A DNA stretch of 44,177 nt from a virus: positions 1 through 44,177 of IMG/VR virus record IMGVR_UViG_3300010354_000164; one strand, written 5' to 3'. A model generated the notes under the pieces. The model was not told where the DNA came from and did no database searches. It worked only from the letters and a program-made list of their open reading frames with translations. Below are positions 5,016 to 38,830 of this stretch, one piece after another. The translations under genes and the position numbers were made by a program. Within the stretch, counting starts at the first letter, position 1. Each line of letters opens with the position of its first letter.

Positions 5016-6433
5016 TTCAACTCATCGAATATGGATACCTTCAAACTCCATATCTCAGCGAGTTCCCATATCTTCAACCTGCTGCTGAGCAAGGCTTGGC
5101 ATTGCAGACTGAGTTCAGAGTCGACAAAGAGAAAACGAAAGGCATCCAATTTCTTGGAAATCTGACAAAAGACAAACCAATCGGAAGTCAGTTCATTGGG
5201 CAGGTGACAGGCTTCGAACAGACTCGCGGCTTGCAGACTGAGTTCAGAAAGTTCGATGAACTGACGACTGCTTTTCAAGCAGAAAATCTAATCGTCGCAG
5301 AAATTGCAAAAGGTGTTCAAGCTGAGTTTGCTGTGACTACTGAAAATGTCGCAGGCATTCAGTTCTTGAGCAATTTGACGAAAGACAAACCTGCTGGCTT
5401 TCAGTTCAAGGGTCTTCTCGAAGGCAAAGAGAAAATCAAAGGGATTCAGTTCCGACCTGGACACGTCTCTCATTATGAGTGCTTCGGGAATGGTTATCTG
5501 AATGATGAACCGTATCTCTCTGTTTATCCGTATCTAAACTCTTTCGTTTGCGCGACATTCGGAATCCAGTTCCAATCTGTCAAAGAAGACTCAAGAGCGA
5601 TTCAGTTCCGCTCTGCTTTGTATAACACTACGAATCTTCGCATCCTGATGGATTTCCCAAGCCGTGGAACAACTGGCGAAAACTGGACTTCGACGAGCAC
5701 AGCTCCAAGTTCAACCAACAGCTTCTCAATCAATAATGTGAACACAGACATCGTAGAGCAGTATTGGCGTTCTGAAACAGGCGTTCTGTCTGCAACTCTT
5801 TCTTGCGATACTGAACTGCCTCAAGGTGTGTATCTCGATACTCTGGCAATCTTGAATCACAATCTTTCTGGTTCTGCGACTGTCATTCTTCAAGGCTCGA
5901 ATGACCCAAGCTTTGCGACGATTCCAGTCAATGTGACTCTCGATTATGAAGCAAACAATCTTTACTACATCGCACCGACTCTGCCTCTGAATCCTTATCG
6001 TTACTGGAGATTGAATGTAAGCGATGCTGGTTCAGCTGATAACTTCTTGCGAATCGGAACAATAGTTTTCGGCTCAGCAATTATCTTCAGCCAAGAGAGC
6101 TTTGTTGACCGAGTCAGATTCGGCCAAAGACAGTTCGTTGATAAGGTTTACACTGAAGGCTTCACGAATATCAGCAACGACAGAGGCAAGAAGAAATACT
6201 TGAACCTTGAGTTCAGGAATCTCTCGTATGGCCGAATCAACTTTCAGAACATGAGAGAGCTTTTCGATTACGCTGGTATCACTCTCAAGTGCCTTTACAT
6301 CCCCGTGCCTCAACAGCCAAGCAGATTCGCTGTCTTTGGCAAGCTGACAGATATTCCTGCTGAGGAGCATAACTATAAAGGCGCTGATGCTGATTATGTT
6401 GACTTCTCAATCGAAGTGGATGAATCGCTATGA
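5012..6433 (+). CDS. Tail-tip protein, probable distal-tail (Dit) position, with internal repeats
   Basis: A GTG start overlaps the tape measure stop (GTGA), with AAAGGAG at 4998-5004. The 473-residue product sits where siphoviruses encode the distal tail protein joining tube to tip. Its N-terminal half is built from repeats. GYL-PYLS-PYL appears near residues 8-22 and again near 160-175. GIQFLGNLTKDKP near 44 recurs as GIQFLSNLTKDKP near 111, and QF/QTEF steps recur between them. The C-terminal half is a beta-sandwich-like region with RYWRLNV and FLRIGTIVFG, resembling discoidin or carbohydrate-binding folds seen in tail proteins. The function call is from position and fold impression. It could instead be a host-binding tip protein. 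Confidence 0.55.
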   Translation: MIQLIEYGYLQTPYLSEFPYLQPAAEQGLALQTEFRVDKEKTKGIQFLGNLTKDKPIGSQFIGQVTGFEQTRGLQTEFRKFDELTTAFQAENLIVAEIAKGVQAEFAVTTENVAGIQFLSNLTKDKPAGFQFKGLLEGKEKIKGIQFRPGHVSHYECFGNGYLNDEPYLSVYPYLNSFVCATFGIQFQSVKEDSRAIQFRSALYNTTNLRILMDFPSRGTTGENWTSTSTAPSSTNSFSINNVNTDIVEQYWRSETGVLSATLSCDTELPQGVYLDTLAILNHNLSGSATVILQGSNDPSFATIPVNVTLDYEANNLYYIAPTLPLNPYRYWRLNVSDAGSADNFLRIGTIVFGSAIIFSQESFVDRVRFGQRQFVDKVYTEGFTNISNDRGKKKYLNLEFRNLSYGRINFQNMRELFDYAGITLKCLYIPVPQQPSRFAVFGKLTDIPAEEHNYKGADADYVDFSIEVDESL

Positions 6434-8385
6434 GTTCATCCAATCGAAAGCCATATCTGACGGCAAGCAGCATCAATCAGCAGTTGCTTAATTTTGCATC
6501 TGACAATCTTGCAAATCAGCTTGAGTTGATTGTTGAGATTCAAGCTCCAGATGGTTCAATCATTCGAGCTTCAGACAGAAATAAATATGTTGGCGAGCAT
6601 TTCTACGAAGCTCTGACAAACTTCCCTGCTGTTGTGAGAACTGTCGGAGAATGGCTGACTGAAGGTCTTCTGTTCTCTGAAATGACGTTTGAGCTTTCAA
6701 ATGCAGATGGTCGATACAATAAGTTCCTTCCAGGTGGAGCGAACTTTGCAGGATGGGTCGGTCGAACAGTCACGGTCAAGATTGGCTTGAGAGATGTTCA
6801 ATCGAGCTTCTTTCAAATCTTCAAAGGAGAAGTTACAGAGGAAGCAGGTTTCAGCCGTTCAATCAAATCTGTGACCATTCGAGCGCGAGATGTTCTTGCG
6901 AAGAATAATGTTTCATTTCCCACAGGAGTCTTCACGCTTGCAGATTATCCGAAAGCATCTGATGATTTGCTAGGCAAAACGATTCCAGTCATCTACGGAG
7001 ATTGGACTGAACTGCTTTCTCCAATTACAGCCTCGATTCCATGCTATCCGGTAAACTCAAACGACATCTTTGTGAACAACGAAGAACTCACAGTGACAAT
7101 CGCTCTTGGCACTCCTGCAATCTTCTCAGCGTATCGGCACTGTCTTGAGGCGAATGACGAAGTTGATTTGATGACAGAGGGAACGCTTCCTACGGGAATC
7201 TCGCAAGGCAAGAAATACGTCAAAACGGTTCTTTCTGACTCGACGTTCACTCTCTCGGATACTCTCGGAGGGACAGCTCTCAATGCCTCTGGCACTCAAA
7301 GCGGAAGGCATTACATCACCAAGCATTCGAATGAACCACATGAGAATATCAAGCTCGTGATTTCATCAAATGCGTTGTTTTCGATTGACACGAGCAATCT
7401 TTACATGCGCCGTTCGAGTGTTCTTTATCAAGTGCCTGCTGCTGATGTTGTGAATATCTCGGTCAATAAGAACACATTTGAACTGAAGCAGAACTCGACG
7501 AACTGGTTCGAAGGTGGAAAGTATTACTTCAGTCGCTCAGATGAGTTCTTCATTCGCTGCAAAGGCAAGAATCTGAGCGGTTATGATAATAATGCAGTGG
7601 CTATCGCACAGGATATTCTAACAACCTACGGAGGCGTCTCTGGAGGCGATTTCGATGCTTCATGGGTGACCTTCAAAACCAAATCGTCTCCTGCAACTGG
7701 TGCGGTGGCTAACTGGCGAGCGAGAGCTTGGATTGGCGAACCAAAGAATACTATGGAGTATGCTTCGAATCTGCTTCAGCAGGTCAGGATTCAGCTGTTT
7801 CAGAACAAGGATGCAAAGCTCGACCTTCATGCTCTGCATTGGGACGAGTTCGATGACACTCCGTCTTATACGGTGAACAACTGGGACGTCGAACGCGATA
7901 GTCTGAGACCGACTCTCGATGTGCAGAATAACTTCAATCGGTCGAAGGGAACCTTTGGATTCGCTCCAGAAGCAAATCAATCAGCCTTTTCGACAGTCTA
8001 TTTCCGCAATCAGGCAGCAATCACTCAGAATGGCAGAATCCTGACCAGAGACTTGGACTATCCGAATCTGTATCGGCTTGCAGATGTTGAAATTCAGGTC
8101 AAAGAAACTCTGAAATTGGCATCAGGTTATCGAGAAGTCATCGAAGTGACCTTGACCAGCAGAGCCATTCTTCAGGATATTGGCGAATGGGTGCTTCTTG
8201 ATGTGCAGATTGGTGCTTCTCAGTTCGTGGCTGTTCCCTGTCTCATTCGAGAGATTGGATATTCGCCAGAAGGATTGAAATTGCCTGTGAAGCTCTGGTC
8301 TTTTGCTATGCTGCCTTTTGGAACATGGAATCCTGGCTACACAGGCATCGTTGGCGGTGCCTCTGCGACTATAACAGCGGAATGA
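6430..8385 (+). CDS. Tail hub / baseplate-like protein
   Basis: 651 residues, translationally coupled to the previous gene by ATGA at 6430-6433. The N-terminal 160 residues contain FELSNADGRYNKFLPGG and a following beta-barrel-like stretch with FKGEVTEEAGFS and SVTIRARDVL, a pattern common in phage tail-hub and minor tail proteins. The remainder is beta-rich and ends in a small-residue tail. Its place two genes after the tape measure matches the hub or Tal position, where a trimer closes the tail and organises the fibres. No peptidase motif is apparent. Structural role likely; exact role inferred. Confidence 0.55.
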   Translation: MSSSNRKPYLTASSINQQLLNFASDNLANQLELIVEIQAPDGSIIRASDRNKYVGEHFYEALTNFPAVVRTVGEWLTEGLLFSEMTFELSNADGRYNKFLPGGANFAGWVGRTVTVKIGLRDVQSSFFQIFKGEVTEEAGFSRSIKSVTIRARDVLAKNNVSFPTGVFTLADYPKASDDLLGKTIPVIYGDWTELLSPITASIPCYPVNSNDIFVNNEELTVTIALGTPAIFSAYRHCLEANDEVDLMTEGTLPTGISQGKKYVKTVLSDSTFTLSDTLGGTALNASGTQSGRHYITKHSNEPHENIKLVISSNALFSIDTSNLYMRRSSVLYQVPAADVVNISVNKNTFELKQNSTNWFEGGKYYFSRSDEFFIRCKGKNLSGYDNNAVAIAQDILTTYGGVSGGDFDASWVTFKTKSSPATGAVANWRARAWIGEPKNTMEYASNLLQQVRIQLFQNKDAKLDLHALHWDEFDDTPSYTVNNWDVERDSLRPTLDVQNNFNRSKGTFGFAPEANQSAFSTVYFRNQAAITQNGRILTRDLDYPNLYRLADVEIQVKETLKLASGYREVIEVTLTSRAILQDIGEWVLLDVQIGASQFVAVPCLIREIGYSPEGLKLPVKLWSFAMLPFGTWNPGYTGIVGGASATITAE

Positions 8386-23864: not shown

Positions 23865-24509
23865 ATGAAAATCACTATGTTGTCAGTTGAGAAAATTTCG
23901 CCCTACCAGCGTAACGCAAAACGGCATCCTCCAGAGCAAATTGAGAGTCTCGCGAAGCAAATTTCAGAAGTCGGTTTCACGCAACCAGTAGTCGTCGACA
24001 GTGATAATTCCTTGGTCATCGGTCACGGCAGGCTTGAAGCCGCTAAATTCCTTGGAATGGAAAAGGTTCCTGCTTTTATTTTGGACAAAAATCTCAGCAA
24101 AGAACGCGTCGCTGCGCTGCGTATATATGACAACAAAGTGTCAGAAACCGGATGGGATACGATGAAGTTGATTGAAGAACTTTCAAGCCTGAAAGAGCTT
24201 GACGTAGACCTATCTTTGACTGGGTTTCAAGAGTTTGAAATCAACTCGATGCTGGATGTCGACCTCGGAGATATCGGCTTTGATATTCCGGAAGACAGAA
24301 GTAAAGACGATTCAGAAACGAAAGAAACTTCTGAAGGTTTCAAACAAGTCCAACTTCTGTACAAACCAGATGAACATGTGAAATATCTGGAGTTCATTAA
24401 AAAGTACCAGCGTTATTACGGTTGTTCAGATAAAACAACGGCAGAAGTCGTACTGATGGCTTTGGAAACGGCTTGTAAAGTACACGAACAAGGTGATGAA
24501 CAAGAATGA
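23865..24509 (+). CDS. ParB/Srx-fold N-terminal domain protein
   Basis: 214 residues, ATG 23865 with AAGGAG upstream. VEKISPYQRNAKRHP, IGHGRLEAAKFLGMEKVPAFIL and RIYDNKVSE are the ParB-type nucleotide-binding core; GHGR is the phosphate-binding box. The C-terminal 80 residues are acidic and then helical, with no ParB HTH, so this is not a plasmid partition protein. ParB-domain proteins of this kind are frequent in phages next to DNA methylases and base-modification genes. Here it is coupled by ATGA to the TET/JBP gene. Possible roles are a CTP/ATP-driven switch or guide for DNA modification; this is inference. Confidence 0.8.
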   Translation: MKITMLSVEKISPYQRNAKRHPPEQIESLAKQISEVGFTQPVVVDSDNSLVIGHGRLEAAKFLGMEKVPAFILDKNLSKERVAALRIYDNKVSETGWDTMKLIEELSSLKELDVDLSLTGFQEFEINSMLDVDLGDIGFDIPEDRSKDDSETKETSEGFKQVQLLYKPDEHVKYLEFIKKYQRYYGCSDKTTAEVVLMALETACKVHEQGDEQE

Positions 24510-25387
24510 AAGTTCTAACATTCAAACCGCTGCAAACTGACAAACAACTCGATTCACAACTCGGTGATTTTCTGGATGAGCAGTCTTATGATTTGCTGAT
24601 AAGCAATAAGAACTTCACCGAACCAGTCGAGTTGAAAGACGCCATCACAAATAAAACTTTCGCTGTCTGGGTACCTTCTTCTTTACCGAAACAGTTTTGC
24701 CTTGATGCTTATAAGAGCTTGAGAGAGGCAGCCACGTCAACGACCAACCGTGGTATCGCATCTGGTAAAAGCGAAATGCGTATACGCAAAGACGGTTCCG
24801 TCAGCAAGACACGCATTGGAAACGCAGTTGATTCTTCAATTATCGGATATTTCGACAGATATCCGCGAATGAATTATTGTCGCGCTTGTGCTTGGAATTA
24901 TGCGCACCCGAGTGAATGGAAAAAAGCCATTCCGATGATTGAAGAAATCTCGAGGCTTTTTAAAACATATGCTTTCGAGAAATATAATTACCAAGCAACT
25001 GTTGCGGCTAAGGTAAAAAAAGACTGGCTCATCGGTGATTCCGTATTTTCTACGGTAACGATAAATAAGAACTTTCGTACAGCTTTACATAGGGACGGAT
25101 TGAATCTGGAAGATTCTTTCAGTGCTTTCAATGTCCTCAGAGCCGGTAATTTCATGGGTGGTAACTTGGTGTTTCCACGATACAGAATAGCTGTTTCTTC
25201 TGACAATCAAGATTTGTTGTTCTTCATGCCACAAGAACCACACGGCAATACAGAAATGAAATCGATCAATGGTAAGGCGTTTGAAAGAATCAGCCTTGTT
25301 TACTACCTTCGCGACAAAATGCGTGAATGCGGAACAGTTGAAGAAGAACTTGAACGAGGCCGCAGGTATCACGGAGGCCTTGAATAA
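24506..25387 (+). CDS. TET/JBP-family 2-oxoglutarate/Fe(II) DNA dioxygenase
   Basis: 293 residues, ATG 24506. The C-terminal double-stranded beta-helix has the ligand set NKNFRTALHRDG (His195, Asp197), EPHGN (His246) and ERISLVYY (Arg261 for 2-oxoglutarate). Upstream, MNYCRACAW and the segment up to YNYQATVAA match the region before the core in TET/JBP enzymes. NFMGGNLVFPRYRIAV fits the strand before the second His. These enzymes hydroxylate 5-methylcytosine (TET) or thymine (JBP) in DNA. The gene lies between the ParB-like gene (ATGA overlap) and a glycosyltransferase, the classic setting for phage base hypermodification. Which base is used cannot be told from sequence. Confidence 0.87.
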   Translation: MKVLTFKPLQTDKQLDSQLGDFLDEQSYDLLISNKNFTEPVELKDAITNKTFAVWVPSSLPKQFCLDAYKSLREAATSTTNRGIASGKSEMRIRKDGSVSKTRIGNAVDSSIIGYFDRYPRMNYCRACAWNYAHPSEWKKAIPMIEEISRLFKTYAFEKYNYQATVAAKVKKDWLIGDSVFSTVTINKNFRTALHRDGLNLEDSFSAFNVLRAGNFMGGNLVFPRYRIAVSSDNQDLLFFMPQEPHGNTEMKSINGKAFERISLVYYLRDKMRECGTVEEELERGRRYHGGLE

Positions 25388-25402
25388 ATAAAGGAAAACC
25401 GC

Positions 25403-26395
25403 ATGAAATCTATTGGCGTTGTGAGCTTCAATAAAATTCCAGACCACGACATGAGTACTGTGGCAACGGTCAGGCTCACGAAGTACATAGTGCAAAGACT
25501 AGCTTCAAAAGGCTTGTCAGTAACGTTGATAGATTCAGTAGAGAAATGTCATCCTAAAAAATATGATGCCTTAATAACGATCAATGGCGTGTTTTTGTTT
25601 TGCAATTTCAAGCAGGAATATGCTGCTTTGGTTCACATGAACAATCGTCATATTTGGGTCGGTCAAGACTACAATCCTAACATGTGGATTCCGGCCGTTT
25701 CTGGATATGACATCAAATCAAGGTTTTACGGCAAATCTGACGCCACCTTGATCGCAGCATATCAAAGGAAAACAGATAACCATAAAAAGATTCCTAAATA
25801 TAAATACTTAAACTGGAATCAGCTGACTTACATTCCAGGAATCCCAGAAAAACAATTCACAGTTCCTGGAGTTATGTATTACGGAGCCTTCAGAGAACAT
25901 CGTGAAGTGTACTTCCGTAAGTATTTCGTTGACGCGCCTTATCAGCTCAATATCGCCGCTCCGACACCGAAACATCAAAATAAGTTTTTGGCCTTGAACC
26001 CGAAAGCTAAGATATTTCAGTTCGAAAAATCTATCCCAGAAGAGGCCGGAAAGTTTCAATGCGCTCTTTACATTGAGGACACGTACTCACATGTGGGTAC
26101 TCCGAAAGGTATTTACAGTTCTCCTGCAAATCGCTTTTACGAATATCTGAGCGCAGGAGTTCTTACGTTTTTCGACAAGTCGGTCAAAGGTACATTCGAT
26201 ATTGCAGGCATCGACGTGTCTCCTTGGGTCGTTGACAGCAAGTTCGAGCTTGCCGAAAAGATGAAAAACCGGTCGCTGAAAGAAATGCAGCGCAAGCTCT
26301 ATCTGGAAAACGACTTCCGCAGAAAGCTGGACCAAGAGTTTGACCTCATCTTCCAGCAGGTTTTAGGAGACCTCATTTACATTCAAGGTGAATGA
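25403..26395 (+). CDS. Glycosyltransferase, GT-B-like, probable DNA-base glycosyltransferase
   Basis: 330 residues, ATG 25403 with AAGGA upstream. The N-terminal half is Rossmann-like (MKSIGVVSFNKIPDHDMSTV, LSVTLIDS). The C-terminal half carries GIYSSPANRFYEYLSAGV then LTFFD, the P-x-R-x-x-E-x-L-x-x-G-V pattern of sugar-nucleotide-binding domains in GT-B enzymes. No signal peptide or membrane span, so it should act in the cytoplasm. Placed 15 bases after the TET/JBP gene, it most likely adds a sugar to the hydroxymethyl group on DNA. An alternative is glycosylation of virion protein. The sugar donor is unknown. Confidence 0.72.
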   Translation: MKSIGVVSFNKIPDHDMSTVATVRLTKYIVQRLASKGLSVTLIDSVEKCHPKKYDALITINGVFLFCNFKQEYAALVHMNNRHIWVGQDYNPNMWIPAVSGYDIKSRFYGKSDATLIAAYQRKTDNHKKIPKYKYLNWNQLTYIPGIPEKQFTVPGVMYYGAFREHREVYFRKYFVDAPYQLNIAAPTPKHQNKFLALNPKAKIFQFEKSIPEEAGKFQCALYIEDTYSHVGTPKGIYSSPANRFYEYLSAGVLTFFDKSVKGTFDIAGIDVSPWVVDSKFELAEKMKNRSLKEMQRKLYLENDFRRKLDQEFDLIFQQVLGDLIYIQGE

Positions 26396-29919: not shown

Positions 29920-29995
29920 GAGTGCCTCCATGTTATTTGACTAGCCGCTTCGTATAGCAGAAGATTGCCTAAGATGAAAGCATGGAAGGCTTGTG

Positions 29996-30718
29996 ATGTT
30001 ATTGCATGGTGATTGCTTAGAACTTATGAAGAACATTCCTAGTGGTTCAGTCGATATGATTCTGACTGACCCACCTTACGGCACGACAGCATGCAAATGG
30101 GACAACGTCATTCCGTTCGAACCAATGTGGGAACAAATCTGGCGTGTCCTTAAACCCAATGGTGCTTGCCTGTTGTTTGGCAGTGAACCGTTCTCAAGTG
30201 CCTTGCGCATGAGTCAGATCAAGCGGTTCAAGTATGATTGGGTATGGGTTAAGGAACGTCCTAGCAATCCTTTAATGGCCAACAAACAAGTATTGAAATA
30301 CCACGAAACAATCAGCGTCTTTTACAATCAACAAAGCAATTTTTTTCCACAACTGAGACAAAGAGATCTAAAGAACAAAAGAAAAAACAAACCACGCATA
30401 TTTGAAAGCCAAGTTACACGCAAGGTTCCAAACAGTGAAGGTATGAACCAGACAGGTGAAAATGACTTAATTAAGCCAAAATCAGTCATAGAGTTTTCCA
30501 TGCAGCGAGGCTTGCATCCCACTCAAAAGCCTGTCGCATTACTCGAATACTTGATCAAAACATACACGCTGGAAGGCGAAACCGTTCTGGACTTCACTAT
30601 GGGATCAGGTTCTACAGGCGTGGCTTGTATGAACACTGGCAGGAAGTTCATTGGTATTGAGATGGATGACAAATACTTTGAGATTGCTCAAAAGCGTATT
30701 GAAAGTGCAAAACAATGA
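29996..30718 (+). CDS. Orphan DNA amino-methyltransferase (beta-class, DPPY)
   Basis: 240 residues from ATG 29996 (GTG 29993 in frame is less likely). HGDCLELMKNIPSGSVDMIL is followed by TDPPYG (catalytic motif IV, residues 25-28). The SAM-binding motif TVLDFTMGSGSTGVA comes near the C-terminus, after HPTQKPVALLEYLI. This IV-first, I-last order marks the beta class, which methylates N6-adenine or N4-cytosine, not C5-cytosine. No restriction enzyme is nearby, so it probably protects phage DNA or marks it for packaging. It overlaps the small terminase gene by ATGA. Confidence 0.92.
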   Translation: MLLHGDCLELMKNIPSGSVDMILTDPPYGTTACKWDNVIPFEPMWEQIWRVLKPNGACLLFGSEPFSSALRMSQIKRFKYDWVWVKERPSNPLMANKQVLKYHETISVFYNQQSNFFPQLRQRDLKNKRKNKPRIFESQVTRKVPNSEGMNQTGENDLIKPKSVIEFSMQRGLHPTQKPVALLEYLIKTYTLEGETVLDFTMGSGSTGVACMNTGRKFIGIEMDDKYFEIAQKRIESAKQ

Positions 30719-31185
30719 AACTGACCAACGCACAACACGAAGAAGCACTCAGAGCCATACGCAATGGCGCTTCGGTGCATCAGATTGCGGCAAAGTACAA
30801 ACTCAGCATTGATGAATCCAATGAACTTATAGCAGCCGTTGCAAGAGAAACACGCGAAGGTGCCAGCAGCCATCGCATCATGCTTCGCGCTTTATTGCGT
30901 GAGCAAGCACCGCTGGCGTTGAAGACCTTGGTTGACCTTTGCCAGCCGAACTTGAACATAGAGAATCAAATGGACTTGCAGGTGCTCAACTTGCGACTCA
31001 AAGCTGCTGAGAAGATTCTTGGCTATGCAAGCCGCATGATGATTGAAGATGTCGTGACTGGAATGGTTGAAGCTGGTAAGGAAGAACAGATGCAAGAAAC
31101 GCTGTTCGACTTTGAGTCCGTGGTCAATCCAGATGGTGGCACGACGCTCATCGCACAGCCAAAATTGAAGTTGGTTGAGAATTAA
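30715..31185 (+). CDS. Terminase small subunit-like protein
   Basis: 156 residues, ATG 30715 coupled to the methyltransferase by ATGA. The N-terminus HEEALRAIRNGASVHQIAAK continues YKLSIDESNELIAAV, a helix-turn-helix as in TerS DNA-recognition domains. Helices in the middle (LNLRLKAAEKILGYASRM) could form the oligomer core, and the acidic/hydrophobic tail could contact the large subunit. Its place before the large terminase gene, separated only by an HNH gene, supports the call. TerS is divergent, so no exact family is claimed. Confidence 0.7.
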   Translation: MKLTNAQHEEALRAIRNGASVHQIAAKYKLSIDESNELIAAVARETREGASSHRIMLRALLREQAPLALKTLVDLCQPNLNIENQMDLQVLNLRLKAAEKILGYASRMMIEDVVTGMVEAGKEEQMQETLFDFESVVNPDGGTTLIAQPKLKLVEN

Positions 31186-31283
31186 TAAGATATTTTACTT
31201 TTTCAAAAGCGTCATATAGAAGATCCATGCCGTCTTCTTCTTCGATCGAAGCCGACGGTGCAAACTGTCGGGAAGGAGAAGAT

Positions 31284-31853
31284 GTGCATCAAGTCTATAC
31301 TCAAAGATTAGTAGTAACTGGTCGAAAGCCAACCAAAGGCAAAATTACTAGATATTTCATTTGCGAAGACTATGCGAAAATTTACCTTGGAAGTGGCGCA
31401 TCCTTCTTAATTGATACTGATATTTTAGATGAGATTTTACAGTTCAGTTGGTTCATAGACAAAAAATACGTCTATCGCGTTAAAACAATAGACGGTAAAA
31501 GAAACGTAAAAATTAGAATTTATCGCCAAATAATGCGCGCTGAAAAAGGTCAAATAATAGACCACATCAACGGCAACACCTTAGACAATAGAAAAATAAA
31601 TTTGAGAATTTGTACAGCTCAACAAAACCATAAGAACAGAAAGAAGCGAAATGAAGAGACCGCTTCAAGTAAATATAAAGGCGTTTCTCGTAAAAGAAAG
31701 AAGTGGTGTGTTTCTATAACTCACAATTATACGCGGCATCATCTTGGAATGTTTGACACACAAGAAGAAGCTGCGGCAGTTTATAATGAAGCATCAGAAA
31801 AACTTCATGGTGAATTTGGACGAAAAAATATAATTGAGGATAATAATGTTTAA
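31284..31853 (+). CDS. HNH homing endonuclease with AP2 DNA-binding domain
   Basis: 189 residues from GTG 31284, supported by AAGGAG at 31273-31278; an in-frame ATG at 31227 is less likely. IIDHINGNTLDNRKINLRIC followed by T-QQNHKNRKKR is the HNH_3 nuclease core. SSKYKGVSRKRKKWCVSI followed by HLGMFDTQEEAAAVYNEA is an AP2 domain. The gene is strikingly A/T-rich compared with both neighbours, as expected of a recently acquired selfish element. It sits between the terminase genes, a common landing place, and its end overlaps the large terminase start. Confidence 0.9.
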   Translation: MHQVYTQRLVVTGRKPTKGKITRYFICEDYAKIYLGSGASFLIDTDILDEILQFSWFIDKKYVYRVKTIDGKRNVKIRIYRQIMRAEKGQIIDHINGNTLDNRKINLRICTAQQNHKNRKKRNEETASSKYKGVSRKRKKWCVSITHNYTRHHLGMFDTQEEAAAVYNEASEKLHGEFGRKNIIEDNNV

Positions 31854-33266
31854 TATCAAGTTGCCAATGCCATATGCCACATGGCAGAAGCATCTTATCA
31901 ACGAAAAAACACGCTTAATTGTCTTGGCGTTAGGGACCAAATCGGGAAAACACTTGGCGGAGCAGGGCGAATAGCGAATTTCAGCTTCTCTGCTCCGCGA
32001 GAACAATCGGCTCTGTATAGAATCATCGCACCGACTTACCAACAGGCAAGTATCACTTACAAGTATCTGGATCGGCTGTTTCCACAGACTTTGCCAGCAC
32101 AAGGCAACCTGACGCCTCAACAATACAAGCAAGCTATGGAGCAATGGGCAAAGATTACGCCAGAGCGTTCCGAGTCAAAGATGCGAATGCGCTGGAATCA
32201 TAATGGTGCGCAGATTCAATGCGTCCATGCTCAAGACCCGGAGCGCAGTATCGAAGGTGAAAGAACGCATGGGAATTTGATTGATGAGGCAGCGAAATGC
32301 TCTCAGCAGACCTTCGCATCAGTCATGTCGACAACTTCTCAAACAGGTGGATGGATTGCGTTAACATCAACGCCTCGAGGAAAGAACTTTTTCTACGATT
32401 TGTACCGACAATGCCAAGAACACATGGCATGGGCAGAAAAGCATCAGAAGCCGTATGAACAATTCTGCGCGACTGCAAGAACAATTGATTCTCCGTACGT
32501 CGATAAACGAGTCGTTGAACAAGCTCGCCTGTCCTTACCAGATAGACTATTCCGACAGCTTTACTTGGCTGAGTTCATGGATGATGGCTCCGTCTTTCTC
32601 GGTCATCGGGACTGCGTTGAAGGCGATTTGATTGAAGTTTATGGAAAGATGCAGGCATGGCAGGTGCCAGACGCCAAATCAAAGAAGGTTGTCATTGGAG
32701 CCGACTGGGCGAAAAGAACAGACTATGGGGTGTTTATCGCTTTTGAAGTCGGAACTTCCAGACCCAAAATCGTCGGCTTCAGAAGATTTCAAGGCCTCGA
32801 CTACAAGTTAGCCATTCGGGAACTCTACCAGTTTGGAGAACAGTTTAATGAAGTTCTCTTGATTCGTCATGACCGAACGGGTATCGGTGACGTAATCAAC
32901 GATCTGCTTTCCAGCTTCCCATATCCGATTGATCCTGTCGTTTTCACAAATGAAAGCAAATCTTCGATGGTGGACGCCTACATGGTCGCCATTGAGACAA
33001 GGAATCTAGTCTTCCCGAACTGGCCTGAGCTTATCAAAGAGCATGACAACTATGATGTGAAGATGAGTGTTCTCGGTAAGCCAACTTACTCCGCGCCTCC
33101 GGGGTTGCATGATGATATTGTGACCGCCTGCTTTCTGGCTTGGTCAGCAGTCCTTGAAACGCAAGACCGTGTTTTCGATGTGCGTTTTCTGGAAGACCTG
33201 CCGAAAACTGCTCTTTCTGTGGAGTCGTGGTACGCTTCTCTTGCCGATGAAAACGATGACTTCTGA
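31846..33266 (+). CDS. terL: Terminase large subunit, requiring a -1 frameshift inside Walker A
   Basis: Start ATG 31846 with GAGGA at 31836-31840. The first frame encodes residues 1-35 (MFNIKLPMPYATWQKHLINE..., then VLALGTKSGK) and then meets TAG at 31972. A -1 slip at 31944-31950 continues as TLGGAGRIANF to TGA 33266, 473 residues in total, restoring an exact Walker A (GTKSGKT). Walker B and catalytic Glu: GNLIDEAAK (Asp147, Glu148). Coupling motif: TSTPRGKN. RNase H-type nuclease: VIGADWAKRTDYG (Asp287) and LHDDIVTA (Asp423/424). It translocates and cuts DNA at the portal. The ATG at 31881 in the second frame gives no terminase-like N-terminus. Confidence 0.88.
31944..31998 (+). promoter_or_regulatory. 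Candidate programmed -1 frameshift signal in terL
   Basis: Heptamer G GGA AAA at 31944-31950, in the correct phase for the upstream frame (TCG GGA AAA CAC). A six-base spacer follows, then a perfect 9-bp stem GCGGAGCAG (31957-31965) with CTGCTCCGC (31990-31998) around a 24-base loop. The zero-frame stop lies within the loop (31972-31974). This is the standard bacterial -1 frameshift layout. The alternative is a lost A in an A5 run, by mutation or sequencing error. Confidence 0.65.
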
Positions 33267-33299
33267 CGCATATCCTCACCAACCGGAGCAGAGACAACG

Positions 33300-33512
33300 A
33301 TGGCCTTGGTCGTGCAACTTAAAAAAGGTGAAGCACTCAGAGTCGGTGACCAAGTTCTAATCGTCAGCGCATCACGTGGCGCACGAATTGTCCTAGACGC
33401 TCCCAAAGATGTGAAGATTGAGAGATTGGGAGTCTTGCCTGAGCAGGAGCAAGAAGATGCAAAAGTCCAAGGAGCGGTCATCGTCCGTAGAGCCAACGAG
33501 GAAAAGAAGTAA
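33300..33512 (+). CDS. CsrA-like small protein
   Basis: 70 residues. LKKGEALRVGDQVLIVSASR continues GARIVLDAPKDVKIER. This follows the CsrA pattern of G-E-x-L-x-(I/V)-G-D-x-V, then x-R-I-x-(I/V)-x-A-P-K-x-V-x-(V/I)-x-R, with a turn about three residues shorter. Arg42 corresponds to the RNA-contacting Arg44 of E. coli CsrA. The N-terminal RR pair is replaced by Leu-Lys, so RNA binding may be altered. CsrA dimers bind GGA in mRNA leaders and block translation. It lies between terL and the portal gene, overlapping the latter by 56 bases. A structural role cannot be ruled out. Confidence 0.65.
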   Translation: MALVVQLKKGEALRVGDQVLIVSASRGARIVLDAPKDVKIERLGVLPEQEQEDAKVQGAVIVRRANEEKK

Positions 33513-36066
33513 GCGCGGCTCGCGTGATTATGGCTTGAGATACATTGACCCGAATGGTTTCCCTTCAGAGGAACCATACAACTCCGCATGGGCAGTCGAA
33601 ACTAAAGCCTTCATGACGAGTCAGAATCTCAAGGCACTTTTGTATTCAGAAGATTGGGTGTTCATCAGCGTTGATGCTTATGCTCAGCCGATTTCCTCTT
33701 TGCCTCTGCAAGTGATTCGCAAGTCTGTTGAAGATGGTCAATCTGTTGAGAAGCCTGTCGAATTTCATCCTGTCGCTCAGCTTCTTGAGACTCCGAATAA
33801 ATGGTCGAATGGTTCTGAACTGAAATACTCTCTCGCCTGCGACTATGTTCTTGGCGGCAATTCATTCATGTATCACGCCAAGTCAAGCAAAGAGCTCTAT
33901 CACATCAGCTTTGACAGAGTTCAGTATGACTTCGACCAGCAGCATCTCCCGAAAGCCTACATTGTTTACCCAGATACTGAAGAAGTCATCGTTGGACTGA
34001 CGAAAGGCATCTCAATCGGACTGGATGAAATGGCTCATGCCAGAAGACCGAATCCGAGTTCGCCAATCTGGGGTCTGTCGCCATTCATCCCGGGACGTCG
34101 GTCGATTCTGTTCAATCGTTATTCTCAAGACTATCTGAACAGCTTTTATCTCAAAGGCGCAACGCCTCAAGGCATCCTTGAGATGGACCAAGCTGCGAAT
34201 GAACAATCAGTTCTCCGCTTGCTGCGCTCGTTTGAAATGGCTCACACAGGAAGACGCAACCAACGCAGAACCATGCTCCTGCCAAAAGGCGTCAAATGGA
34301 CTGCTGCTGACCATAAGATTGCAGACCAAGGCATCGTTGAACTCGTGAAGATGAACCGCGAGACGATTCTGAACACGCTTCATATTCCAAAGCACGTCGT
34401 GTCTTTGCAAGAAGCTGGCTCGCTTGGTTCAGAAGAGCATAAGATGGCTCTGAAATACTTCTGGCAGACGGCTCTCATTCCAACGGCGAAGGCAATCGCT
34501 CACGCTTTGACAAAGCATTTCCGCAAAGCAGGGATGCTTCAGGTCAACGAAGAACTGCAATTCAACACTTCAGAAGTTGTTTTCCTTCAGGAAGACTTGA
34601 GAGCGCAAGCGGAAATGGCTGCTTTGCTTCTGAAGACTCACACTCTCAATGAAGTTCGATCGCAAATCTTTGGCCTGCCAGCTCTCGATGGAGGAGATTC
34701 GACTCCTGGTGCTGCTCCTGCTTTGCCGTTTCAACCGTTGTCTTTGCCTGAAGTGAAGTCGATGCCAGATGAAGACGATGGTTCAGACCTTGAATACAAA
34801 GCGATTCCTGGAAAGTATGAACACATTGATTTCAAGCCTCCTCAGGATGTTGCTGATGAAGCCGCGCTTGGTCTTGAATGGCGGCAGAAATACGGAAGAG
34901 GCGGCACCGAAGTCGGTGTTGCGCGAGCCGTGCAACTCAAGAACAAGAGAACCGTTCTTCCAGACACAATTCAAAGGATGGTCAGTTATTTCGCTCGTCA
35001 TGATGGCGAAGGAGATAACAAAGAACCGAACGGAGAACCTTCCGCTGGAGCAATCGCTTGGAAGCTCTGGGGTGGAGATGCCGGAAAGCGATGGTCTTCG
35101 AAAGTTCAAGGCCAGATTCAGGCGGCAGATGAAAAAGAGAAAGTTGATGCTATTCCTCCGCCAGAGATGCCGGAACAAAAGCCTCTTGAACCGCTCGCAA
35201 GCGAAACCAAAGAAATGGGACGATACGCTTCGCAGGTGAAAAAGAACGAGGAAACAGTCAGCACTCACTTGAAAGAGCAGCTGCCGAAGATGGTGAAATG
35301 GTCTCTCGACTTGTTTGCCGACCAAGCGAAATTGGCAGTCAAAGCTCTCAAGCAAAAGAAAGGCATCAAGGCAGACATGCCTTCAGCCAAGGAATACCGA
35401 AAGCGTCTTGAGAAGGCTTTCAAGGAATTGCAGGACCAATATCTTTCTCAATACAGCGACATTCTTTCATCAAGCATGGATGTCGGATACCAGAAGCAGA
35501 TTGATATTGTCTTCAATAAGACTGCTCGTGAGACTCTGACAGCGGTTCAAGAAACCGATGCTGAAGGTCGCGCTGCAACTCTGAAAGCTCGCGGATTGAA
35601 GTCTTTCAAGAACATTGACCAGACTTCGACAGATGAAATCATGAAAATCGTCCAGGATGGCATCGAGAATAATCTCTCTGTCGATGAAATTCAGAGAAAC
35701 ATTCTTGAGGAGTTCTCGGACCTTGGAAAATCAAGAGCAGGGACAATTGCCAGAACTGAGACTCTGACCGCTGTTTCAATCGGCTCTGCTTCGATGATGA
35801 AGCTCGCTGCAAAGGCTATCCCAGACCTTCAGAAAGCATGGGTTACCGCTCAAGATGACAATGTTCGTGGAACTCATCGCGGCGTGAATGGAGAAATCAG
35901 GAAACATGACGAACCATTCAGCAATGGTTTAATGTATCCTCAAGACCCCGATGGTGAGGCATCGGAAACTATAAATTGTCGGTGTAGTCTTGTGACGCTT
36001 GCGCCTGAAGATATGGCAGAATACGAGCAAGAACTGCAACAGCTGAAGGAGACTGCTCCAGAATGA
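33457..36066 (+). CDS. Portal protein fused to a MuF-type head morphogenesis domain
   Basis: 869 residues from ATG 33457, with AGGAG at 33445-33449. Residues about 40-420 form an HK97-type portal (LLYSEDWVFISVDAYAQPIS, LACDYVLGGNSFMYH, RNQRRTMLLPKGVKW). Residues about 455-545 hold a small module with YGRGGTEVGVARAVQLKN and AIAWKLWGGDAGKRWSSK, found in other phage and protease proteins. After a coiled-coil-rich stretch, residues about 730-855 match the Mu gpF-like domain (GTIARTETLTAVS, AWVTAQDDNVRGTHRGVNG, ETINCRCSL). The portal dodecamer is the DNA gate; MuF proteins are minor head or ejected proteins. The fusion would deliver one MuF per portal subunit. ATGA couples it to the protease. Confidence 0.88.
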   Translation: MQKSKERSSSVEPTRKRSKRGSRDYGLRYIDPNGFPSEEPYNSAWAVETKAFMTSQNLKALLYSEDWVFISVDAYAQPISSLPLQVIRKSVEDGQSVEKPVEFHPVAQLLETPNKWSNGSELKYSLACDYVLGGNSFMYHAKSSKELYHISFDRVQYDFDQQHLPKAYIVYPDTEEVIVGLTKGISIGLDEMAHARRPNPSSPIWGLSPFIPGRRSILFNRYSQDYLNSFYLKGATPQGILEMDQAANEQSVLRLLRSFEMAHTGRRNQRRTMLLPKGVKWTAADHKIADQGIVELVKMNRETILNTLHIPKHVVSLQEAGSLGSEEHKMALKYFWQTALIPTAKAIAHALTKHFRKAGMLQVNEELQFNTSEVVFLQEDLRAQAEMAALLLKTHTLNEVRSQIFGLPALDGGDSTPGAAPALPFQPLSLPEVKSMPDEDDGSDLEYKAIPGKYEHIDFKPPQDVADEAALGLEWRQKYGRGGTEVGVARAVQLKNKRTVLPDTIQRMVSYFARHDGEGDNKEPNGEPSAGAIAWKLWGGDAGKRWSSKVQGQIQAADEKEKVDAIPPPEMPEQKPLEPLASETKEMGRYASQVKKNEETVSTHLKEQLPKMVKWSLDLFADQAKLAVKALKQKKGIKADMPSAKEYRKRLEKAFKELQDQYLSQYSDILSSSMDVGYQKQIDIVFNKTARETLTAVQETDAEGRAATLKARGLKSFKNIDQTSTDEIMKIVQDGIENNLSVDEIQRNILEEFSDLGKSRAGTIARTETLTAVSIGSASMMKLAAKAIPDLQKAWVTAQDDNVRGTHRGVNGEIRKHDEPFSNGLMYPQDPDGEASETINCRCSLVTLAPEDMAEYEQELQQLKETAPE

Positions 36067-37361
36067 AATGCACAAAATCATCTCGATTCAAGAAACTTGG
36101 TGACTCCGTCCCTGAAGGGATGGTCAGAATCTCCGGTTTTGCAAACCGCTTCATGGTTGACGCCTACAAGGAACGCATGGATCCATTGAGTGTCAAACTT
36201 GAACGCTACAAGCAGAACCCGATTCTTCTTTTCAACCATGACATGAACTATCCTGTTGGACGTGTTGTCGCTGTTGAGCCTCGGGAAGATGGCCTTTGGG
36301 TCGAAGCCGTGGTTTCAAGCTCAGACAATGAGAAGGTCTCGTTTGTGAGAGACTTGGTCGCCGATGGAACGCTTTGCACGTTCTCGGTTCGCTTCGCTGA
36401 TGAAACAGTTGTTGAAGACCCTGAAGTTCAGGGTGGCAAACTTATCAAGGATTGGGAACTTCAGGAGGTAAGTATCGTGAGCATTCCAGCGCAACCAGAT
36501 TCCACATTCTCATTGGCAAACGTCAAAAGCCTCAAAGACCTGCGCGAAATGGCTCTGAAGGCCAAAGGAGCAATGGTCGCCAAGATTGCAAATGACCACA
36601 TCAGCAAGTTGGTTGATGCCGGTGAGAAGAAAGAAGACCTGCTTCAAAAGCTATCTGATGCTTCCGGTGCTGAACCGCCAGCTCTTGCTGAAGTTCTCGC
36701 TGGCAATGTGACTCCTGTTCCTGAACCGATTCTCGGAGCTTTCTCCTCGATTCTCGGCTGCGAGTCGACCATGCTCAATGAAGCAAACGCTGCTGATGTT
36801 GAAGCGCAGAAGTCGATGGCCGAGGAAGAAATGCCAAAGGAAGGCGAGAAGGCAGAGAATCCTCCGCTTTCTCAAGCAGTCCAAGAATGTGTTTCTGAGA
36901 AGATTCCAAAGCTGATTGGCGAAGGCAAGCCGCAAGACCAAGCCGTGGCAATCGCAATCTCGATGTGTTCAAAAGAAAAAGGCTGCTCGGAATTTGTGCC
37001 GACTCGTGAGATGATGGCAAAGTGGTTGGAAGAATGCGACAATATCAAGCAAGCAGAACAAGATGGTCAGTCCAAAGAGACTGCACCGCTGCCTAGCAAG
37101 GAGCCTGAAGGCATGAATGACAACGCGCATTTGATGTTGCTGAAATCTCAGCTTGAGATGCTTGGCGCGATTTCTGTGAAGCTCGATGCTTTGAAGGACG
37201 CGATTGCAGGTCTGGTGATGCAAGAGAAAGTCGAAGACGAAAAACCAGAAGCAGAGGCGCCAGAAACAGAAGTCGAAGTGGAATTGCCTGCCGAAGCAGA
37301 GATGGCGATGAAAAGCCTGCTTGACGAGTATGAAGCAAAGTTGAAAGCTCTGCTTGCTTGA
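36063..37361 (+). CDS. HK97-type prohead protease fused to a scaffold-like region
   Basis: 432 residues. Residues about 15-150 are the U35/S78 protease: ISGFANRFMVD, ILLFNHDMNYPVGRV (catalytic His), LCTFSVRF (catalytic Ser) and WELQEVSIVSIPAQPDS. The remaining 280 residues are acidic, helical and coiled-coil-like, as expected of a scaffold that is digested on maturation. Within it lies QECVSEKIPKLIGEGKPQDQ, then AVAIAISMCSKEKGC, a conserved cysteine-flanked helical module recurring in phage head proteins. Coupled to the portal gene by ATGA and followed by the capsid promoter. Protease call strong; scaffold call from composition. Confidence 0.9.
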   Translation: MKCTKSSRFKKLGDSVPEGMVRISGFANRFMVDAYKERMDPLSVKLERYKQNPILLFNHDMNYPVGRVVAVEPREDGLWVEAVVSSSDNEKVSFVRDLVADGTLCTFSVRFADETVVEDPEVQGGKLIKDWELQEVSIVSIPAQPDSTFSLANVKSLKDLREMALKAKGAMVAKIANDHISKLVDAGEKKEDLLQKLSDASGAEPPALAEVLAGNVTPVPEPILGAFSSILGCESTMLNEANAADVEAQKSMAEEEMPKEGEKAENPPLSQAVQECVSEKIPKLIGEGKPQDQAVAIAISMCSKEKGCSEFVPTREMMAKWLEECDNIKQAEQDGQSKETAPLPSKEPEGMNDNAHLMLLKSQLEMLGAISVKLDALKDAIAGLVMQEKVEDEKPEAEAPETEVEVELPAEAEMAMKSLLDEYEAKLKALLA

Positions 37362-37384
37362 AATCATACCGTTTGTGTTACACT
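37354..37384 (+). promoter_or_regulatory. Candidate extended -10 promoter for the major capsid gene
   Basis: TGTTACACT (37376-37384) is an extended -10 element (TGn plus TACACT). The -35 region is poor (TTGCTT at 37354-37359, 19-bp spacing, or CTTGAA at 37357-37362, 16-bp spacing), as often in extended -10 promoters. Transcription would start near 37391, a few bases before the first leader hairpin. A dedicated promoter fits the high demand for capsid protein. Confidence 0.45.
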
Positions 37385-37393
37385 GTCACGGAA

Positions 37394-37434
37394 GCCTCAT
37401 GACGAGGCATTGAAACTTTGCGGCAGTCAGCCGC
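37394..37434 (+). promoter_or_regulatory. Two 5'-leader hairpins of the major capsid mRNA
   Basis: GCCTC (37394-37398) pairs with GAGGC (37404-37408) around ATGAC. GCGGC (37420-37424) pairs with GCCGC (37430-37434) around AGTCA, extendable by two pairs. Both lie between the candidate start of transcription and the GGAGG of the capsid gene, which is left free. They probably stabilise the mRNA 5' end, or bind a regulator. Confidence 0.5.
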
Positions 37435-37450
37435 GATATTGGAGGAATGT

Positions 37451-38830
37451 ATGTCGGATATGGAAAAACGGCTGGCTGCGTTTGAATCGAAAGTGCAGTC
37501 TGCTCTTGGCGAAATCGAAAAGGCAAAGGCTGCCAATATCGTTGGTGGAGCAACTAGCTTCAGCAACCGTAGCAACAGCGATGAACAGAAACTTCTCAGC
37601 TCGTTCGGCGTCAGCAACGTCAAGAGCCTGATTGAAGTCAACACTGCTCACCCTCGCTACGCTCACATCAGCGAAAACTGCAAGTCTGCTGTTCTTCAGT
37701 TGAAGAAAGACATGGACATTGCTCGTATGCAAGCTCAGTTGTTTGCTGGTCAGCCTCTTGACCGTGATGACGAGCGAGTTGCTCATGTGAAAGGTGTTCT
37801 CGACACACCTTTCGCTCGCACTGTTGACTTGAAAGCTCGCTTGAAGGCATTCGGTTCGACCGTTGTCGGACAAGGTGATGAGTGGGTGCCAACTGCAATC
37901 TCGGCTTCGTACATCGAAGAATACGAGCTTGAGAAGAAATTGGCTGCTGCTTTCCGTGAAATCCCAATGGCAACCAACCCTTTCCAGCTTCCTGTTCAAC
38001 AGGGTGTGACGAAAGCTCGCTTGGTTTCTGAAGCTGCTGCTGCAACCGATGCAAACTTCAATACTGAGAAGCTCCAGTTCGATGCCAAGAAATTGGTTGA
38101 ATACTACATCCTCCCAGAAGAACTGAACGAAGACAGTGCTCCAGCCATTCTGGAATTGGCTCGTGGCGAAATTCTTGCGGCTCAAATTCGCGCTGTTGAA
38201 GATGCAATCATCAACGGTGATGACAGCGGTACTCACATGGACAGCGACGTTGTGTCGGCTGCTTCGAACCAGAAGGCTTGGAAGGGTCTCCGTAAGCTCG
38301 CTCTCGCAGCTTCGTCGACAACTTCTTTCTCTGGCGCAGGCGTCAGCAAGACTGGCCTCGACGCTATGCGTAAGCAAATGGGTAAATACGGAACTTCTCC
38401 GAAAGAATTGGCTTGGGTTGTTGGACCTTCGGTCTACGCTCAAATGCTGAATATCGACGAAGTTGCTACGCTTGAGAAGTTCGGTCCTCAAGCAACGATT
38501 CTGACTGGAGCTCTCGCGGTATTCCGCGGAATCCCAATCATCGTGAGCGAGTTCGTTCGTGAAAACCTGAACGCTTCCGGCGTTTATGATGGAACAACCA
38601 CGAACCGTTCTGTTTGCCACCTTGCAAACATTCGCCGGTTCTATCTCGGCTTGCGCCGTCCTATCCGCGTCAAGGTTCAGCAAGACGCTCGCGCTGAATA
38701 CGATCGTTGGCAGTTGGTTTCGTATCAACGCCTCGACTTCAAAGGCCACAAGCAGGCTGGCGAAGCGTATGCAAGCGGTGCAACTTCTGCTGAAAGAAGC
38801 TCGGTTTTGGGAATCAACATCCTCGCTTGA
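37451..38830 (+). CDS. Major capsid protein, HK97 fold
   Basis: 459 residues from ATG 37451, with GGAGG five bases upstream; the same frame is open further 5' from a TTG but without a ribosome site. Residues 1-30 are a coiled coil (MEKRLAAFESKVQSALGEIE), the usual start of a delta domain or N-arm that the protease may remove. The core shows HK97-family features: VVGQGDEWVPTAISASYIEE, LVSEAAAATDANFNTEKLQF, LAWVVGPSVYAQMLN, AVFRGIPIIVSEFV and RRPIRVKVQQDARAEYDRWQ. It assembles the icosahedral head with the upstream protease-scaffold. The flanking promoter and terminator fit very high expression. Confidence 0.93.
   Translation: MSDMEKRLAAFESKVQSALGEIEKAKAANIVGGATSFSNRSNSDEQKLLSSFGVSNVKSLIEVNTAHPRYAHISENCKSAVLQLKKDMDIARMQAQLFAGQPLDRDDERVAHVKGVLDTPFARTVDLKARLKAFGSTVVGQGDEWVPTAISASYIEEYELEKKLAAAFREIPMATNPFQLPVQQGVTKARLVSEAAAATDANFNTEKLQFDAKKLVEYYILPEELNEDSAPAILELARGEILAAQIRAVEDAIINGDDSGTHMDSDVVSAASNQKAWKGLRKLALAASSTTSFSGAGVSKTGLDAMRKQMGKYGTSPKELAWVVGPSVYAQMLNIDEVATLEKFGPQATILTGALAVFRGIPIIVSEFVRENLNASGVYDGTTTNRSVCHLANIRRFYLGLRRPIRVKVQQDARAEYDRWQLVSYQRLDFKGHKQAGEAYASGATSAERSSVLGINILA

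Follow-up and report, generated by a model that had tools for sequence, protein, structure and literature searches.

Our analysis suggests that three tightly packed genes of a tailed phage form a post-replicative DNA hypermodification cassette, which would probably oxidise thymine in DNA to 5-hydroxymethyluracil (5hmU) and then glycosylate it. The TET/JBP-type dioxygenase would act on thymine in phage DNA, hydroxylating its methyl group with Fe(II), 2-oxoglutarate and O2; the product of the third gene would then move a sugar from a host nucleotide-sugar onto the 5hmU hydroxyl, and the result would be a glycosyl-oxymethyluracil resembling base J. Our guess is that the ParB-domain protein probably aids the action of the dioxygenase on DNA, for example by targeting. 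Phage base modification in general protects phage DNA, and the modified product may serve here to shield it from host nucleases. More broadly, we lean slightly towards the view that the ParB-TET/JBP pair is a widespread and interchangeable phage front end that converts T to 5hmU in DNA and feeds varied finishing enzymes, in this case an undescribed glycosyltransferase family that would yield a prokaryotic base-J-like nucleotide. The enzyme family, the catalytic ligands, the recurrent gene order, the absence of a C5-methyltransferase and the downstream partners of the relatives were computed here directly.

The cassette and its dioxygenase

The stretch of DNA analysed (the window) is the entire IMG/VR virus record IMGVR_UViG_3300010354_000164, 44,177 bases long. 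Its genes for a large terminase, a capsid protein and the tail, for RecT/exonuclease and for replication-initiation-like proteins mark it as a tailed phage; its terminase is distant from those of the whole phage collection, the best match being Tunturiibacter phage Tunturi_4 at 30% identity. Directly upstream of the large terminase gene lies a gene (31227-31853) for an HNH plus AP2-domain protein, probably a homing endonuclease. The features that concern us here are the following.

23865-24509, + strand: 214-aa protein with a ParB N-terminal domain, first gene of the cassette (PF02195, phrog_620)
24506-25387, + strand: TET/JBP-type Fe(II)/2-oxoglutarate dioxygenase, 293 aa, second gene of the cassette (PF12851; H195-x-D197, H246, R261)
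25403-26395, + strand: glycosyltransferase-like protein, 330 aa, third gene of the cassette, presumed to glycosylate the hydroxymethyl base (relatives in IME392 and L168)
29993-30718, + strand: DNA methyltransferase of the N6/N4 type and not a C5 enzyme, lying outside the cassette (PF01555, E 6.4e-34)

The three-gene arrangement described in the sequence-only reading is indeed present and tightly packed: the ParB reading frame overlaps the start of the dioxygenase gene by 4 nt, and the third gene follows directly after a gap of 15 nt. Purine-rich sites resembling ribosome-binding sites precede the ParB and third-gene starts, and promoter and terminator scans around the cassette gave matches at chance level.

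The dioxygenase matches Tet_JBP (PF12851) over residues 112-269 with an E-value of 6.9e-21 (74.6 bits, against a cut-off of 34.9). The ligands proposed earlier, His195-x-Asp197, His246 and Arg261 in a TET/JBP context, were correctly assigned; all Fe/2-oxoglutarate ligands are present and these four residues are invariant in an alignment of 41 dioxygenase relatives. An AlphaFold2 model built from 37 sequences (mean pLDDT 93.8) shows a TET-type double-stranded beta-helix fold, and the TET-type structural matches span the whole of the model. In Foldseek the best 26 PDB matches were all TET2, NgTET1, CcTet or CMD1, and VIA-align gave Z-scores of 22.4 for TET2 (258 residues, 3.4 A), 19.9 for CMD1 and 18.8 for NgTET1. 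The observation as a whole lies well outside what chance would produce. At two positions near the iron site, 200 and 207, the window enzyme has N and A in place of the D and N of the other 40 aligned sequences, and its specificity may therefore not match theirs. The position three residues after the iron-ligand Asp, which is D in these 40 relatives and N in the window and actinophage enzymes, was considered as a marker of substrate and rejected, D being found as well in the enzyme of Methylophilales phage Melnitz, which lies beside a C5-methyltransferase.

Single-sequence searches of IMG/VR returned no close relatives of either the dioxygenase or the third protein, and alignments were therefore needed to find them. 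In the resulting tree the window dioxygenase groups with actinophage enzymes (SH-aLRT 93), a grouping on which we do not rely because the actinophage branch is long (3.7 changes/site) and of odd composition.

The first protein of the cassette belongs to the ParB_N family (PF02195, E 3.6e-8, 33.8 bits against a cut-off of 26.3) and to phrog_620 (E 1.3e-43), falls below the cut-off of TIGR00180 and is 33% identical to the ParB protein encoded beside the dioxygenase of Pelagibacter phage HTVC112P. Among the 85 loci related to the window dioxygenase (80 IMG/VR relatives and five phages), 73 have a ParB homologue, whose gene usually runs into or adjoins the start of the dioxygenase gene, just as in the window; none was found in 72 loci of the Melnitz type. 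The ParB protein is thus a general and recurrent partner of this dioxygenase clade, not a peculiarity of the window phage, and its role is perhaps in DNA targeting. A further example of the arrangement may be a 5,474-base contig from a Winogradskyella MAG, with ParB-like sequence upstream of the dioxygenase and TAGT-like sequence downstream; so short a contig may be phage DNA.

Thymine or methylcytosine as substrate

The sequence-only reading had left the substrate open between thymine and methylcytosine, having seen no C5-methyltransferase and only a DNA methylase of the amino type. Both of these observations hold: the N6/N4-type enzyme (PF01555) is the only DNA methylase seen in the window, and the C5-methyltransferase family PF00145 is absent from the 44,177-base record, an absence that falls short of proof, as the record may be incomplete. 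We extended the survey to 67 records of the window dioxygenase clade, made up of the window, five phages (Pelagibacter phage HTVC112P, Nonlabens phage P12024L, Stenotrophomonas phage DLP6, Caulobacter phage Cr30 and Synechococcus phage S-CBWM1), 35 IMG/VR records, 25 more and contig L168. PF00145 was found in none of the 67, most of the compared contigs being fragments, and in none of seven actinophages with more distant dioxygenases, whereas it was present in all ten records of the Melnitz type that served as positive control, a set that is one narrow related group, so that this is a contrast of two lineages and not of many independent events. The Melnitz-type Tet_JBP proteins form a separate clade (SH-aLRT 100), and the methyltransferase gene adjoins that of the dioxygenase in 61 of the 62 Melnitz-type loci with room upstream, which is why fragments of similarly short length still show it.

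The genes that follow the dioxygenase in the relatives bear on the same question. TAGT (TET-associated) glycosyltransferases occupy this position in about 30 loci and FkbM-type methyltransferases in about 18, while about 20 loci carry a module of glutamine amidotransferase, GNAT acetyltransferase, ADDT ('amino acid:DNA transferase', PF18724) and P-loop kinase. A search of 40 hand-chosen records, largely lacking TAGT, detected ADDT in 21, against none of the 14 genomes used as controls. In the actinophage relatives the genes behind that of the dioxygenase encode ADDT, a P-loop nucleotide kinase (of PF18751 in the cases tested with the profile) or both, sometimes with an FAD enzyme, and in most of them a ParB-domain gene is annotated just upstream of the dioxygenase. 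Lee et al. 2018 and later work reportedly found 5-hydroxymethyluracil in DNA to be the substrate of ADDT and of the 5-hmdU kinase, in thymidine hypermodification. The simplest reading of such an exchange of enzymes behind one dioxygenase clade is that they share a common intermediate, which would be 5hmU made from thymine. The presence of TAGT next to the dioxygenase is by itself uninformative as to the base, since such enzymes are also active in phages with 5hmC and on the modified cytosine of T-even phages (PMC13390438).

Several of these downstream genes deserve a description of their own. The FkbM-type methyltransferase directly behind the dioxygenase (L001:6899-7597 and similar contigs) possibly caps the hydroxymethyl group, and the amidotransferase-GNAT-ADDT-kinase set (L006:6020-8766 and similar IMG/VR contigs) is probably an undescribed hypermodification module of the amino-acid type. 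At L067:7891-8667 a protein in which a cytidylyltransferase-like domain is fused to a cupin of the mannose-6-phosphate-isomerase type is encoded between dioxygenase and TAGT, which suggests a phage-made sugar nucleotide.

The thymidylate-synthase homologues (PF00303) that make hydroxymethylated nucleotides are absent from the 44,177-base record, as they are from L168, HTVC112P and the actinophages, so that, as far as these records show, this known route would not supply the hydroxymethyl base at the level of the nucleotide pool; their absence fits an oxidation that takes place in DNA.

The main alternative, to which we give a low but appreciable probability, is that the dioxygenase oxidises 5-methylcytosine that comes from the host or from the action of a gene not on the contig, and that the glycosyltransferase then glycosylates 5hmC, as in the phage systems that combine C5-methyltransferase, TET and glycosyltransferase. 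Phage TET homologues are typically tied to the oxidation of methylcytosine and have been described as acting on 5mC (PMC11404850, citing Burke et al. 2021), the window may lack part of the genome, and the fold is nearest to the 5mC dioxygenases TET2, CMD1 and NgTET1, with no structure of a JBP oxygenase among the matches to compete with them. The methyltransferase counts given above argue against this alternative, as does the presence of ADDT and P-loop kinase among the partners of the clade; dependence on host 5mC would, moreover, restrict the phage to hosts that have it. For HTVC112P, a phage of SAR11, host 5mC is unlikely, given that a restriction-modification system is reported from just one of more than 100 SAR11 genomes (PMC7029224). 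Stenotrophomonas phage DLP6 was considered as a case of modified DNA, and the passages of PMC5349666 on this point give neither a modified base nor a usable result for the digest with 18 enzymes. By association, then, the substrate leans clearly to thymine, favoured by the methyltransferase survey, the ADDT/kinase partners and a relative of the third gene that lies beside a 5-hmdU kinase gene (see below), with host methylcytosine keeping a lesser share of the probability.

The third gene and its relatives

The protein encoded at 25403-26395 has no significant match to any curated Pfam family and no credible match among PDB sequences in phmmer and profile searches, and an AlphaFold model, built from two sequences, reached a pLDDT of 34. 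It is not a TAGT, PF20691 giving no match in the window at E 1, and its relatives are few. Its closest named relative, AXY86080 of Escherichia phage IME392 (30% identity over 94% of the length, E 9e-30), adjoins a protein with the helical domain of the 5-hmdU DNA kinase (HMUDK; PF18723, E 3.2e-35), beyond which lie a P-loop kinase and then, three genes from the relative, a thymidylate-synthase homologue; on the opposite side from HMUDK, a PIG-L deacetylase is found two genes away. By gene content, then, the third-protein family appears to occur in a 5-hmdU pathway as well. A second and independent occurrence is on IMG/VR contig L168, where the genes run Tet_JBP, radical SAM/SPASM and a homologue 33% identical to the window protein. 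Nonlabens phage P12024L, in which TAGT comes next, has a dioxygenase 68% identical to that of L168; the third-protein family thus replaces TAGT behind a closely related dioxygenase.

These two loci merit attention in themselves. The IME392 region from 31175 to 37490 is a probable thymidine-hypermodification cluster of mostly unnamed genes, its members being the PIG-L deacetylase, the glycosyltransferase relative, the HMUDK helical-domain protein, the P-loop kinase, the thymidylate-synthase homologue and a YfbR-like nucleotidase. The L168 operon of Tet_JBP, radical SAM/SPASM and window-type glycosyltransferase (5192-7930) may make yet another modified base, in a pathway that includes a radical SAM reaction.

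It has been proposed that the third protein is a 'GT-B-like glycosyltransferase'. Two of its relatives match Glyco_trans_1_2 (PF13524) over the conserved C-terminal region, below the curated cut-off, and the window protein has no family match of its own, so the GT-B part of the label is weakly supported; that the protein is a glycosyltransferase of some kind is, we believe, quite likely from its relatives. Proposed with it, the reading of the cassette as one that oxidises and then glycosylates is supported by the Tet_JBP ligands and fold and by the third-gene relatives in base-modification operons.

It is nonetheless conceivable, if rather doubtful, that the dioxygenase makes an oxidised base and the third protein is no DNA glycosyltransferase, acting instead on sugars of the host or virion surface or in some other function and leaving DNA with a bare hydroxymethyl base or a different decoration. 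The lack of a significant glycosyltransferase-family match and the low pLDDT of the model would agree with this. Its relatives, however, lie inside the base-modification operons of two unrelated phages, IME392 and L168, their weak matches to Glyco_trans_1_2 cover the conserved C-terminal region, and other members of the clade have TAGT at the same position. Lastly, it is very improbable that this dioxygenase acts in repair, like AlkB, or modifies RNA or tRNA, as the database names 'SNF2 DNA repair protein' and 'queuine tRNA-ribosyltransferase' of some relatives might suggest, because Pfam assigns it to Tet_JBP and finds no domain fitting such names, and because AlkB/FTO-type proteins align with its model at Z about 13-14, below the 18-22 of TET, CMD1 and NgTET1. 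We rejected both labels as probable propagated names; the actinophage Tet_JBP proteins of phrog_6059 and of phage records H20, H25 and H36 that are named 'queuine tRNA-ribosyltransferase' are apparently a mislabel of this kind.

Comparison with known systems and implications

The preferred reading, thymine oxidation in DNA followed by glycosylation, resembles the synthesis of base J in kinetoplastids, where JBP1 or JBP2, dioxygenases of the TET/JBP superfamily, act on thymine in DNA and the J glucosyltransferase follows. The window differs in having a compact phage operon with a ParB partner and a 293-aa enzyme in which Tet_JBP is the sole Pfam domain, with neither the J-binding domain of JBP1 nor the SNF2 domain of JBP2. 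The earlier description of a 'compact base-J-like route' thus serves well as an analogy, and we do not file the cassette as base J because the JBP accessory domains are absent and the thymine substrate is proposed by inference.

With the phage C5-methyltransferase/TET/glycosyltransferase systems (Burke et al. 2021), of which the Melnitz type is an example, the cassette shares a Tet_JBP dioxygenase, oxidation in DNA and, in some loci, a glycosyltransferase nearby. It differs from them in its ParB partner and its separate dioxygenase clade and in lacking, in a record that may be incomplete, the defining methyltransferase, which was looked for and not found; for this last reason it is not classed with them. 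The thymidine hypermodifications of phages of the SP10, ViI, M6 and phiW14 type, with their 5-hmdU DNA kinase and ADDT, have in common with the window the proposed 5hmU intermediate, and the ADDT and P-loop kinase of the clade relatives and the HMUDK beside the third-gene relative point the same way. In the window, by contrast, 5hmU would be made in DNA by the dioxygenase and not by a dUMP hydroxymethylase, the final decoration would be a sugar, and neither ADDT (PF18724) nor HMUDK (PF18723) is present.

Also close are the TET/JBP-ADDT/kinase cassettes of Mycobacterium, Gordonia, Microbacterium, Arthrobacter and Rhodococcus phages and the ParB-TET/JBP-TAGT or FkbM cassettes of marine phages, in most of which a ParB gene precedes the dioxygenase gene, often overlapping it. 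Their dioxygenases are at most 43% identical to that of the window, whose third gene encodes an unrelated glycosyltransferase.

A part for phage TET/JBP proteins in complex base modifications was reportedly predicted by Iyer et al. 2013. The question of thymine is directly testable, since relatives of the module occur in phages already in culture, among them Gordonia phage LittleMunchkin, Mycobacterium phage Reprobate, P12024L and HTVC112P. If the proposed reaction is confirmed, a thymine-oxidising phage clade would represent a second route to 5-hydroxymethyluracil, post-replicative instead of operating on the nucleotide pool, and would provide enzymes that are candidates for the introduction of 5hmU into DNA; bacterial viruses would then have their own counterpart to base J, which in trypanosomes is a modified thymine.
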